42,621 nt of DNA from an uncultured Alphaproteobacteria bacterium (GTDB taxonomy: Bacteria; Pseudomonadota; Alphaproteobacteria; Bin95). Shown here one piece after another: positions 2,625 through 7,185 of the stretch. The stretch spans positions 1 through 42,621 of the forward strand of contig CALLKY010000087.1 in assembly GCA_938083135.1 (NCBI GenBank). Reading direction: 5' to 3'. Below the pieces are notes generated by a model that was given only the letters and a program-made list of their open reading frames with translations, was not told where the DNA came from and did not search any database. Both the position numbers and the translations under genes were made by a program. Position 1 is the first letter of the stretch. Every line of letters starts with the position of its first letter.

Positions 2625-3458
2625 ATGCAGGTAGAGGCAATTGCAGGCGCGCTAGGCGCTGAGATCACAGGCATTGATCTGAGCAGTGAACTGTCGAACA
2701 GCGATGCCGCCGCTATCCGTGATGCCTTCCTGGATCACAAGGTTATCTTTTTCCGGGACCAAAAACTGACGCCGAAAGATCAGGTCCGTTTCGCCAGCCT
2801 CTTTGGCGAGCCGGATATTTATCCTTTCATCGAAGGTCTGCCTGACACGCCTGAGGTCATCGAGATCCTGAAGGCAGAAGGTGACGCCAAGAACTTTGGC
2901 GGCAGTTGGCATTCTGACACCTCCTATATGGAGCAGCCTGCGCTCGGGACTGTGCTTTATGCGCTGGAAACGCCAAAGGCTGGCGGCGACACGCTATTCG
3001 CCAATGCAGGTGCTGCCTATGAGGCGCTGTCTGACGGTATGAAGGCTATGCTCGGCGATCTCAAAGGCGTGAATAGTTCCGAACATGGGTATGCTGGTGG
3101 CCGAGCCGCAGCGATGGCCAAGCTCGATGGTATGAAAGAAACCGACCAAGCGGCGACAGGATACGAATCCCGCCATCCAATTGTGCGCACGCATCCTGAA
3201 ACAGGCCAAAAATCACTCTATCTCAACCGCTCCCACACAGCTTGTTTTGATACGATGACGGAAGCGGAGAGCAAGCCGCTGATCGACTTCCTTTGCGATC
3301 ACATCACCCGGCCAGAGTTCACCTGCCGCTTTCGCTGGACGCCGGGCGCAATTGCTGTCTGGGATAACAGGGCGACCCAGCATTTCGCTGTGAACGACTA
3401 CCCGGGCAAACGTCGTCGCATGCATCGCGTCACGATTAAGGGCGACACACCCCGGTGA
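2625..3458 (+). CDS. TauD/TfdA-family Fe(II)/2-oxoglutarate dioxygenase
   Basis: Cytoplasmic non-heme iron dioxygenase, 277 residues, the usual length for TauD. The iron facial triad is H96-x-D98 (WHSDTSY) with H253 (TQHFAVND). The 2-oxoglutarate-binding Arg is likely R264 or R268 near the C terminus. Relatives split taurine and other sulfonates to release sulfite, or act on aryloxyalkanoates and other small acids, so the substrate cannot be read from sequence. Its TGA overlaps the GTG of the next gene by four bases (GTGA), which indicates an operon with the membrane protein and the molybdoenzyme. Confidence 0.85.
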   Translation: MQVEAIAGALGAEITGIDLSSELSNSDAAAIRDAFLDHKVIFFRDQKLTPKDQVRFASLFGEPDIYPFIEGLPDTPEVIEILKAEGDAKNFGGSWHSDTSYMEQPALGTVLYALETPKAGGDTLFANAGAAYEALSDGMKAMLGDLKGVNSSEHGYAGGRAAAMAKLDGMKETDQAATGYESRHPIVRTHPETGQKSLYLNRSHTACFDTMTEAESKPLIDFLCDHITRPEFTCRFRWTPGAIAVWDNRATQHFAVNDYPGKRRRMHRVTIKGDTPR

Positions 3459-4255
3459 CGGCCAAACCGAGCCCGCAAGGCGTTGCCGCAACAGATCTTT
3501 CCAACCGCGCGCTGATCAGCATCCTGGCTGGTGCGCTCTGCGCCAGCATTTTCGCGACCATTATTACGGCCAGCCTGACAGGCATATGGGGCCTACCCGG
3601 CGGGCCACTGCTACAGGCTGCTGCTGCTATTGGCGCACTTTGCCTGGTTGGATCATTTTTAGCCGTGCTGGCGAAACGGCGCGGGCGACCTGGGAAAGCA
3701 GGCTTCAGGTCACACGTCTGGCTTGCCAGCATCGGCACAGGACTAGTCTTGGCCCATGGGGCGGGCGGGCTGCTCAAACCGCCCGCTACGCTGTTTGTGC
3801 TTCTGCTGCTGCTCATCGGGCTTGGCGTTTGGTCCAGACTACAAGGCGCGCGGATGATGGCACAGACCTTTGGCGAAAAGCGCGCAGGCTTCGCCAAGCC
3901 GACCCCGGCAGTGCGGGCAGAACTAGCGGCACTTATTGAGCAGAAGCAGACATTGCTGGCCAAGCTTGATCCAAGTGCAAATGAGGCTCTCTTCTCACCA
4001 CAAATCCGACATTGGTTCAGCGCGCCGATCCTGGCACTGCGCTATACGAAGCTTGCAACGGAAGAAAGCCGCATCGTTGGTGCTGCTGCTGGTTTGCCGA
4101 AGATCCAAGCGCGTTGGCGGGTGGTGCATCGCTTGGCAGCGCTGGCATTTGTTGGCGGGCTGCTGGCGCACATCATCATCGTTATGCTGTTCGCAGGATA
4201 TGCTGCAGACGGCGGCGATATCTATTGGCTTCACTTTGCAGCTTGGAATTTTTGA
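3455..4255 (+). CDS. membrane subunit with two His pairs, probable di-heme cytochrome b
   Basis: A 266-residue membrane protein starting at GTG in the GTGA overlap with the dioxygenase gene. Hydrophobic segments lie near residues 19-45, 49-72, 86-107, 109-128 and 223-249. Segment 3 carries H87 and H101, and the last segment carries H225 and H239. Both pairs are spaced 14 residues apart, the geometry that bis-histidine b hemes use between two helices. H260 is also near the C terminus. A polar loop of about 90 residues separates the last two segments. It does not look like the NrfD/DmsC/SoeC anchor. Placed directly before the Fe-S/Mo enzyme, it is the likely quinone-side electron partner; that role is inference. 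Confidence 0.65.
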   Translation: MTAKPSPQGVAATDLSNRALISILAGALCASIFATIITASLTGIWGLPGGPLLQAAAAIGALCLVGSFLAVLAKRRGRPGKAGFRSHVWLASIGTGLVLAHGAGGLLKPPATLFVLLLLLIGLGVWSRLQGARMMAQTFGEKRAGFAKPTPAVRAELAALIEQKQTLLAKLDPSANEALFSPQIRHWFSAPILALRYTKLATEESRIVGAAAGLPKIQARWRVVHRLAALAFVGGLLAHIIIVMLFAGYAADGGDIYWLHFAAWNF

Positions 4256-4260
4256 GCGTC

Positions 4261-7185
4261 ATGTCACGCCTAGCCCTGATGATCGATCTGGAACGCTGTA
4301 TCGGCTGTAAAAGCTGCGAGGCCGCCTGCAAAGCCGAGCACGGCCTTGGCCCCGGCGAACGACGAAACCGCGTCGTTTGGCTTGGCGGCGATAATGGCCC
4401 GACCTTGGATTTCCTGAAGCTAGCCTGCCAGCACTGCGAGCGCCCTGCATGCCTCCGTGCCTGCCCGGTTGAACCCAAAGCCATCCGCAAAGATGCTGAA
4501 ACCGGCATCGTATCGATTATCGAAGAAAGCTGTGTTGGCTGCGGTGAATGCGTTGCCGCATGCCCCTACGGTGCCATGGGCTATGATGCTGGCGGGCACC
4601 ACGCGGTCAAATGCGACCTATGTCATGACCGGCGGGCAGATGGTGCCGCAACAACCGCATGCGCCAGCGTCTGCCCAGGCAAAGCGATCACGTTTGGCGA
4701 GCGCGATACCATGCTGGCGAGCGCCGAAGCGGATGGCCGCAAAGCAATCGACAACGACCCGTATCTTTTGGCACCAGCGACGATCTATCTGGATCGGATT
4801 ATCCGGGACGCGTCCGCATTTGATGTTTTTGAGCAATCAACGCCAGCCGTATCCGATGACGGCAAGCCGGACCCCGAGACAGCGACCGCCTTCCCCTTCG
4901 GCCTGCCCCGCGAGGAACGTTTAGCCGATCGGATTGAGCCCGGCGGGTGCAATATCTGCTTCAATGCCTGCACGACCAACTTCCATTTCAAGGATGACAA
5001 GCTGGTCAAAGTAGCCGGCAATGAAGCCGACCCCATGCTGGAAGGCCGTGTCTGCCCGAAATCTCAATTCTCACTGCAGCTCTATAATTCCAAAGACAGG
5101 TTGACCCAGCCGCTAAAACGCGTTGGTGAACGCGGCGAGAACAAGTTTGAGCCAATTTCCTGGGAACAGGCCCTGGATGAGATCGCGGAAAAGCTTGGTG
5201 CGATCCGGGATGACTTTGGGCCGGAAGCCTTGGCAATATTCTCCGGCACGCGCACCGGCACCTTGACCAATAAGGGCTATATCCGCCTGTTCCGTCAGCT
5301 ATGGGGCACGCCGAATTTTGAGACCACGGAGCCCTATTGCTCCTTCGGCAAGAACATCGCCTACAACATGGTTCAGGGCGCTGGCGGCAGTGGCAATAGC
5401 TATACTGAAGGCGACATGGGCTCTGCCGAGCTGTACGTCTACATGGGCGACAATCAAGCGGAAACGCGACCGGTCCACTTCGGCATGATCAATGACTGGC
5501 GGCTGAAGAACCGCGCTCGATTGATTGCTATTGACCCACGCATGACAGTCACAGCCTCCAAGGCGGATTGGCATTTGCCGATCCGGCCCGGCGGCGACAT
5601 GGCCCTATCCCTCGCCATCGCCCACCACATATTCACCGAGAATCTCCATGACGCAAAATTCTGCGAAGAATGGGTGCTTGGCTGGGAAGAATGGCGTGAT
5701 TTCATTTTTGCGAGCGGGTATTCACCAGAATGGGCAGCACCAATAACTGACCTTCCCGCTGAGGACATCAAGCGGCTAGCGGAGGAAATCGCCCGCGCTG
5801 ATGGTTGCGTCATCTTCGGCAGCCGGGGCTTGAACCAGCACGTAAATTCAGTCCAATCCAACCGTGCGATCATGTTTGTCGCGGCCATTACGGGCAATTG
5901 GGGTCGGAGGGGTGGTGCCTATTTCAACATGTCGGCGTCTGTTCCGGCTGAAGCCAATGCGCCGAAAGACCGGATTGCACCACTGAATAAGCCCCGCGTC
6001 CGCACCAGCCCGACCGGTTGGGTCGACGCCATGCGCACTAGCCAGCCCTACGCCCTAAAAGCGCTGATTGCGTGTAATAACCCCATGTCTCTCTGGCCCG
6101 ACCAGACGGAAACGCGGGATGGGCTGAATGCACTTGATCTACTGGTCCATATCGACATCTTCCCCAACGAAACCAGCGCATATGCCGACTACGTTCTGCC
6201 TGCTGCCACCGGCATAGAAAAAGGCGAGGTGGGACGCGCCTGCGAGGATCGCCGTGTCGTATGGATAGACCGCATGATCGAGCCGCCAGGCATTGCCAAA
6301 CCGGATGGATGGATTTGGATCGAACTTGGCAAACGCTTCGGCTTCGATGATGTACTAAAAGAGGAGTGGAAAGACTCAGCGAAGTTCTGGGATGAAGCCA
6401 TGATTGATCATGTGCAGATGCGCGGCGTCACCCAAAAACGCCTGCATTCCAGCCCCTATCGCTGGGTCCGCTTCCCTGTCGCGACAGAGGAAGCCGAAGA
6501 AATCAACACGCTCTATCTGGAAGGCACGACAGCACCAGGCAAACCAGAAGGCCACCGCTTCCCTTCCCCCAGCGGCAAGCTGGAATTCTTCACGGAGGAA
6601 ATGGACGCTAAATTCAAAGGCTATGGCTTATCCGCGCTGCCAGAATTCTATAGTGAGCGCGAAAGCCTGTTCGATATGGCGCATCTGGAAATGCTGGACC
6701 CCGACTGGACTGAAGGCATTAAAAGCCCGTTCCTGAACGGTGCTGCCTACGCATCTCGCGCACGTATTGTTGACGCTAGCGAGGCCCAGCCCGCAGCCGA
6801 TCTCCGCGCCCAGGGCTATGACATGGAGCTTGTTACTGGCCGTGCGCCCGCCCCGCACTTCCATTCCTGGACGCATTATTCATGGCAAGCACAGGAAATG
6901 TGGCCGGACCTGTATGCGCAGATGCACCCCACCACCGCCAAACGCCTTGGCATTGATGATGGCAACCGGGTCACGGTCGAAACATCCCACGGTAAAGCAG
7001 ATGCACGCGCCTGGATCACCAATGGCATCCGCGAGCGCGCGATCTTCATGCCCATCGGCTGGGGCGAACGGCAACCGTTCAATCCTTGGCGTCCGGTCAA
7101 TGACCTAACCGACAAACATCAGCGCTGCCCGATCTCCGAGCAGACGAACCTGAAGTCTCTGCTCTGCCGGGTAAGCGCGGCCTAG
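4261..7185 (+). CDS. fused four-[4Fe-4S] ferredoxin and molybdopterin oxidoreductase (DMSO reductase family)
   Basis: A 974-residue single chain. Residues 1-146 are a DmsB/PhsB-type ferredoxin with four cluster motifs: C13/16/19/23, C56/59/64/68, C91/94/97/101 and C118/121/134/138. Residues from about 225 onward are a bis-MGD catalytic subunit with its own cluster at C230/233/237/265. C360 in EPYCSFG lies where thiosulfate/polysulfide reductase relatives place the Mo-ligating cysteine. The C-terminal molybdopterin-binding domain occupies about 850-960. No Tat or Sec signal precedes the first cluster, so the enzyme should face the cytoplasm. I start at the ATG at 4261, since an extension to 4012 would overlap the membrane gene. 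The arrangement suggests a SoeAB-like sulfite dehydrogenase in one chain, but thiosulfate, polysulfide or another substrate is possible. Confidence 0.85.
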   Translation: MSRLALMIDLERCIGCKSCEAACKAEHGLGPGERRNRVVWLGGDNGPTLDFLKLACQHCERPACLRACPVEPKAIRKDAETGIVSIIEESCVGCGECVAACPYGAMGYDAGGHHAVKCDLCHDRRADGAATTACASVCPGKAITFGERDTMLASAEADGRKAIDNDPYLLAPATIYLDRIIRDASAFDVFEQSTPAVSDDGKPDPETATAFPFGLPREERLADRIEPGGCNICFNACTTNFHFKDDKLVKVAGNEADPMLEGRVCPKSQFSLQLYNSKDRLTQPLKRVGERGENKFEPISWEQALDEIAEKLGAIRDDFGPEALAIFSGTRTGTLTNKGYIRLFRQLWGTPNFETTEPYCSFGKNIAYNMVQGAGGSGNSYTEGDMGSAELYVYMGDNQAETRPVHFGMINDWRLKNRARLIAIDPRMTVTASKADWHLPIRPGGDMALSLAIAHHIFTENLHDAKFCEEWVLGWEEWRDFIFASGYSPEWAAPITDLPAEDIKRLAEEIARADGCVIFGSRGLNQHVNSVQSNRAIMFVAAITGNWGRRGGAYFNMSASVPAEANAPKDRIAPLNKPRVRTSPTGWVDAMRTSQPYALKALIACNNPMSLWPDQTETRDGLNALDLLVHIDIFPNETSAYADYVLPAATGIEKGEVGRACEDRRVVWIDRMIEPPGIAKPDGWIWIELGKRFGFDDVLKEEWKDSAKFWDEAMIDHVQMRGVTQKRLHSSPYRWVRFPVATEEAEEINTLYLEGTTAPGKPEGHRFPSPSGKLEFFTEEMDAKFKGYGLSALPEFYSERESLFDMAHLEMLDPDWTEGIKSPFLNGAAYASRARIVDASEAQPAADLRAQGYDMELVTGRAPAPHFHSWTHYSWQAQEMWPDLYAQMHPTTAKRLGIDDGNRVTVETSHGKADARAWITNGIRERAIFMPIGWGERQPFNPWRPVNDLTDKHQRCPISEQTNLKSLLCRVSAA

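Follow-up and report, generated by a model that had tools for sequence, protein, structure and literature searches.

Complex iron-sulfur molybdoenzymes are known with both heme-b and NrfD-type membrane anchors. NarGHI combines a cytoplasmic Mo enzyme, a subunit with four FeS clusters and a diheme-b anchor, all as separate subunits, with Asp as the Mo ligand, while PhsABC and PsrABC are exported, quinol-dependent reductases of separate subunits, with PhsC annotated as a cytochrome b. SoeABC is cytoplasmic, carries a Cys-ligated Mo-bisPGD center and 1+4 [4Fe-4S] clusters on the separate chains SoeA and SoeB, and uses a membrane anchor and quinone as acceptor. A MopB domain joined to a multi-cluster FeS subunit is found in ActB of alternative complex III, which is periplasmic, belongs to a different complex, and has the opposite domain order to the protein described here. 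ActB has been described as an A-B fusion without a Mo cofactor (PMC10100899), and SoeC belongs to the NrfD-like anchors, which carry no redox cofactors (PMC8076601). An earlier note on this DNA named DmsAB, PhsAB, PsrAB, and SoeAB as systems in which the A and B parts are separate subunits; ActB is a precedent for their fusion. A literature search, with subscription journals mostly outside its scope, found neither a fused SoeAB nor any other B-A fusion paired with a heme-b anchor, and within the literature searched no account combines a catalytically equipped B-A fusion with this unnamed, probably diheme-b protein.

The window, a stretch of 42,621 nucleotides, encodes such a fusion in one uninterrupted frame of 974 codons and a stop (4261-7185, forward strand, as are all window features below), with a four-cluster ferredoxin followed by a DMSO-reductase-family Mo-bisPGD catalytic domain. 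The ferredoxin part (residues 1-149; 4261-4707) is DmsB-type, with a match to Pfam Fer4_11 and 38% identity to E. coli DmsB, and has 16 cysteines in four predicted [4Fe-4S] motifs (13, 16, 19, 23; 56, 59, 64, 68; 91, 94, 97, 101; and 118, 121, 134, 138), the Pfam 4Fe-4S domains falling within residues 6-148. Alignment and conservation point to a fifth [4Fe-4S] site in the catalytic domain, formed by C230, C233, C237, and C265 (4933-5100), and to C360 (codon 5338-5340) as the Mo ligand; this residue is Cys in 44/44 relatives and shares an alignment column with the Mo-ligand Cys of SoeA-like and ArrA proteins and the Sec of FdhF. Pfam recognizes the Mo-enzyme Fe4S4 domain (PF04879) at 230-276, the molybdopterin domain (PF00384) at 280-692, and the dinucleotide-binding domain (PF01568) at 857-966, and these three domains together with the aligned C360 place the protein in the DMSO reductase (MopB) superfamily. 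Across the 44 whole-length relatives, each of the 20 predicted cluster cysteines is fully or almost fully conserved, the exceptions being two rows with disturbed N-termini. The single chain with its 16 ferredoxin cysteines, and the second cluster and likely Mo ligand behind them, had been described in the earlier note and are confirmed here.

The N-terminus of the fusion has no hydrophobic stretch and no Tat context by sequence and hydropathy, and the sole RR within residues 1-60 (34-35) lies C-terminal to cluster motif I. The earlier reading of an enzyme without Tat or Sec signal agrees with this, and a cytoplasmic location is supported because an export signal is missing from the sequence. 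An in-frame TTG is present 83 codons 5′ of the ATG; Tat or Sec export from that start was rejected, as it would overlap the preceding gene in another frame, and the closest homologs align starting at the ATG at 4261. An AlphaFold model of the fusion (pLDDT 84.7, pTM 0.89) is less certain in the ferredoxin part and linker. Formate dehydrogenases and Nap align structurally with its catalytic part at Z ∼40, a match of modeled fold that is no pointer to substrate. In formate dehydrogenases, Cys or Sec is followed by His at the metal, whereas residue 361, directly after the Mo ligand, is S, A, or D in the fusion relatives, and formate is therefore an unlikely donor.

Of 80 loci recovered by a scan of representative genomes, most match over the full length, with identities of 49-99%. 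They come from Alpha-, Beta-, and Gammaproteobacteria, Nitrospinota, and Tectomicrobia, and isolates of Halomonas, Vreelandella, Thioalkalivibrio, and Spiribacter are among the hosts. A false join of two genes through faulty sequencing or assembly, the case the earlier note had named against its own reading, is excluded because whole-length homologs occur in dozens of independent assemblies, among them Halomonas, Thioalkalivibrio, and Spiribacter isolates, and its chance is negligible. The distribution has wide gaps: of the 398 Pseudomonadota genomes sampled, none but the window's own has a whole-fusion match, and a single further match, with 34% identity, has no ferredoxin part. L152 (genome G058), a molybdoenzyme of 738 aa with 34% identity along a portion of the catalytic domain and no ferredoxin part, branches alone in the tree. 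Within the window's own family, all four other members of the genus have the fusion, and it was found in one of nine genomes of other genera, where it is split over contig ends.

Immediately upstream of the fusion lies the gene for P2, a 266-aa membrane protein with five TM helices (3455-4255), which has no assigned Pfam or NCBIfam family. An AlphaFold model (pLDDT 91.9) contains five long helices fitting membrane spans, with histidine pairs on the third (H87 and H101, codons 3713-3757) and last (H225 and H239, codons 4127-4171) long helices. Both pairs are H-x13-H, the spacing found in cytochrome b/b6, and P2, minus the first helix, also fits the A-B(HH)-C-D(HH) helix order of those proteins. 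All four histidines are invariant in 60/60 and 77/77 rows, and because of this conservation P2 probably serves as a diheme-b anchor and as a quinone site. Paired ligand-type histidines on two TM helices are shared with diheme b cytochromes of the cytochrome b/b6 and Ni_hydr_CYTB types. Some P2 family members match DUF4405 (best E 1.9e-6) and Ni_hydr_CYTB (1.7e-4), though weakly, the window P2 reaching E 0.059 against DUF4405. Foldseek and a profile search against PDB structures and sequences, respectively, gave no significant match to P2, and a VIA structural alignment placed cytochrome b6 in its top row with Z 8.4, below the decisive level for a helical bundle. Positive charges lie on the same side as the large 141-215 loop, consistent with a cytoplasmic docking face at which P2 would exchange electrons with the ferredoxin part.

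In 82 fetched loci the fusion has a P2 homolog as its neighbor, which in nearly every case lies immediately upstream and in one (L091) downstream. Fusion loci without P2 are mostly contig ends or paralogs, and P2 homologs with other partners were limited to weak matches, in three further genomes out of 60. The earlier note had suggested that fusing the two parts locks electron transfer in one polypeptide, a view that is not supported, since a separate, conserved membrane protein accompanies the fusion almost everywhere. Elsewhere in the same genome (L102, contig C102, 765-4266), a gene for a cNMP-binding/ferredoxin protein precedes one for a membrane protein of 276 aa, which carries two H-x13-H motifs as well and resembles P2 distantly, and adjoining genes encode CxxCH motifs (c-type cytochromes); this is possibly a second module with a P2-kind membrane subunit.

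With a cytoplasmic Mo enzyme, a four-cluster ferredoxin, and a predicted diheme-b anchor whose hemes are expected to span the membrane, fusion and P2 have the same layout as NarGHI, and could work as an energy-conserving, quinol-dependent reductase: quinol would be oxidized by P2, preferably at the periplasmic face, and the electrons would go to an oxyanion or an S- or N-oxide at the Mo site. This alternative is unlikely: the Mo ligand is Cys in place of the Asp of NarG, NarG is distant from the fusions in the tree, the anchors are distant as well, with only a marginal score for the P2 profile against NarI, the hosts include many bacteria of oxic marine water, and the informative neighbors of the fusion are oxygenases.

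The fusions form one clade (100/100) in two trees, a point the earlier note had left to be checked. Sister to this clade in the catalytic domain (100/100) is a standalone MopB pair from Nostoc and Streptomyces plasmids (WP_179069484 and WP_329212327), which has no ferredoxin part and no annotated P2 neighbor. The earlier note had proposed a tree of the Mo domain with SoeA, PhsA, and ArrA, and the best trees place the fusions outside the group of these three, which a mixture-model tree with added PhsA sequences recovers without the fusions at 97/95. Forcing the fusions together with SoeA is short of formal rejection, with AU p values of 0.083 in an earlier set and 0.057 in the set with added PhsA, and support for placement relative to formate dehydrogenases and Nap is 85/79. 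From these sequence trees, it can be defended that the fusion is not a SoeA ortholog, with its deep position unsettled.

Among the characterized enzymes tested, the highest pairwise similarity of the catalytic domain is to PhsA (236 bits), the best PDB match is a polysulfide/thiosulfate reductase (2vpw), and the C-x-x-G-K at the Mo ligand is common to PhsA and the window protein. PhsC also scored highest among the four anchors searched with the P2 profile, but its match is weak (E 0.0017 in this four-sequence search). These likenesses would fit a cytoplasmic enzyme related to PhsABC whose substrate is thiosulfate, polysulfide, or persulfide and which may run in the oxidative direction. That identity is nevertheless distinctly unlikely, as the mixture-model tree puts PhsA with SoeA and ArrA and not as sister to the fusions, a fusion-PhsA clade is disfavored (AU p 0.022 in a tree with three PhsA and no PsrA sequences; 0.34 in an earlier single-PhsA set), and PhsA is exported whereas the fusion is not. 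The fusion scores 314 bits against the NCBIfam PhsA model, which has a cut-off of 694.

The genome also has a SoeABC-type operon, separate from the fusion (L097, contig C33, 5175-12079), in the order TauE (sulfite exporter), Alph_Pro_TM, universal stress protein, 959-aa MopB, FeS protein, and DmsC-like anchor. Its MopB is 53% identical to a MopB of Thioalkalivibrio denitrificans, a species reported with soeABC (PMC6382920), and the operon is treated here as SoeABC, the name resting on operon type and this identity and not on a comparison with A. vinosum. Similarity between SoeABC and the fusion is only local, at ∼30% identity over some 250 residues. The SoeC of this genome matches DmsC, whereas P2 has no DmsC match and carries the H-x13-H motifs. 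With an anchor unlike SoeC or DmsC, a catalytic domain that the best trees place outside the SoeA/PhsA/ArrA clade (a join with SoeA being short of formal rejection), and a separate SoeABC-type operon in the genome, the fusion-P2 module is not SoeAB. Of the earlier suggestion that the enzyme stays in the cytoplasm as SoeAB does, the location stands, while the comparison with SoeAB is reduced to analogy. Fusion-P2 is a widespread variant of complex iron-sulfur molybdoenzymes.

In the window, P2 is preceded by a TauD-type gene and, before that, a thiol-dioxygenase-like gene, and from the first of these four genes to the fusion, neighbors either overlap or lie a short distance apart. The first gene of this putative operon (2064-2606) encodes a 180-aa cupin that keeps HxH...H and has no Pfam or NCBIfam match; its likeness to thiol dioxygenases comes solely from a phmmer search of PDB sequences, with cysteine dioxygenase type I at 4.7e-7, 3-mercaptopropionate dioxygenase at 1.6e-6, and mercaptosuccinate dioxygenase at 1.1e-5. 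The second (2625-3458) encodes a 277-aa TauD/TfdA-type Fe(II)/2-oxoglutarate dioxygenase with taurine dioxygenase as best PDB match (1.1e-65) and a score of 251.9 bits against the NCBIfam taurine dioxygenase model, under the cut-off of 313. Taurine was rejected as its substrate, as equivalents of the taurine-binding residues His70 and Tyr73 of E. coli TauD are missing from the aligned window protein. The P2 start overlaps the TauD-type stop by 4 nt and the fusion starts 5 nt past the P2 stop, so that the TauD-type gene, P2, and the fusion are, to judge by spacing, probably translated together. The thiol-dioxygenase and TauD-type families include producers of sulfinate and sulfite.

Dioxygenase neighbors are limited to part of the Alphaproteobacteria: 14 loci, every one from this class, have the TauD-type gene two genes 5′ of the fusion, and the cupin gene is found 5′ of the fusion in close relatives only (L017 and L018). 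By eye, housekeeping genes (recA, alaS, and cinA-like) were recognized beside the fusion in many gammaproteobacteria and a GreA-like gene in Nitrospinota. Halomonas has a TRAP transporter and a MocR regulator at this place, and various oxidoreductases and regulators adjoin the fusion at other loci, the neighbors varying by clade. The Halomonas regulator was considered as a sign of TauR-type taurine control and dropped as evidence, since it scores as PdxR-like. On a Pseudohalocynthiibacter plasmid typed as mobilizable (NZ_CP049042.1, 995-15743), fusion and P2 occur with a sulfate-exporter-family transporter, Rieske and ferredoxin proteins, and a second molybdoenzyme.

These differences between clades would also suit another donor, such as arsenite or an organic compound tied to the TRAP, GMC, or dioxygenase neighbors of some clades, and the sister clade includes a Streptomyces protein from an arsenic operon. 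No ars genes lie beside the fusions examined, however, and such a donor is improbable. The Streptomyces molybdoenzyme is encoded on plasmid NZ_CP109189.1 (1241-6334) among genes for arsR, ACR3, and an ArsO-type monooxygenase.

SoeA was found in 27 of 51 fusion genomes and in 50 of the 398 sampled Pseudomonadota (Fisher p 3e-10, phylogeny ignored), which suggests that fusion hosts handle sulfite, an association confounded by phylogeny. About half of the fusion genomes thus already have SoeABC, and these would duplicate a function if the fusion also oxidized sulfite. Weighing the dioxygenase neighbors and this enrichment against the variable neighborhoods elsewhere, sulfite is the first candidate substrate, a tentative choice on circumstantial grounds, and the NarGHI-like reductase and the Phs-like sulfur enzyme are its chief competitors.

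The preferred reading is a two-subunit, membrane-bound molybdoenzyme that oxidizes its substrate, with quinone as acceptor and sulfite as first candidate, and its probability as a whole is put at about 0.5. Fusion and P2 would form a cytoplasm-facing complex in which substrate reacts at the Cys-ligated Mo-bisPGD center, electrons pass through the [4Fe-4S] cluster of the catalytic domain to the four ferredoxin clusters of the same chain, and from there through two stacked b hemes in P2 to the quinone pool. The architecture of the fusion, its conservation, its linkage to P2, and the missing export signal can be read from the sequences compared, and the electron-transfer route is considered highly probable, with heme content and docking predicted and the coupling to quinone deduced from P2. 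The favored direction is oxidation, with quinone as acceptor and a small inorganic or organosulfur compound as substrate, though with less confidence than the route itself. That substrate would be made in the cytoplasm, in the window lineage by the co-encoded dioxygenases.

Fusion-P2 is probably an uncharacterized intracellular enzyme that exchanges electrons with the respiratory chain. It is quite possible, though short of probable, that it represents a distinct cytoplasmic quinone-linked family separate from SoeABC, with a B-A fusion connected to the membrane through a cytochrome-b-like diheme protein that belongs to no named family, and that it gives marine, halophilic, and sulfur-oxidizing bacteria another respiratory path for sulfite or a different reduced sulfur compound. 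In current annotation, the fusion is a generic molybdopterin-dependent oxidoreductase and P2 a hypothetical protein. If sulfite is oxidized, a sulfite sink in SAR116, Nitrospinota, and Halomonas escapes surveys based on SoeABC, SorAB, or Apr/Sat alone; if the function is another, those genomes would hold an unrecognized entry to or exit from the respiratory chain.
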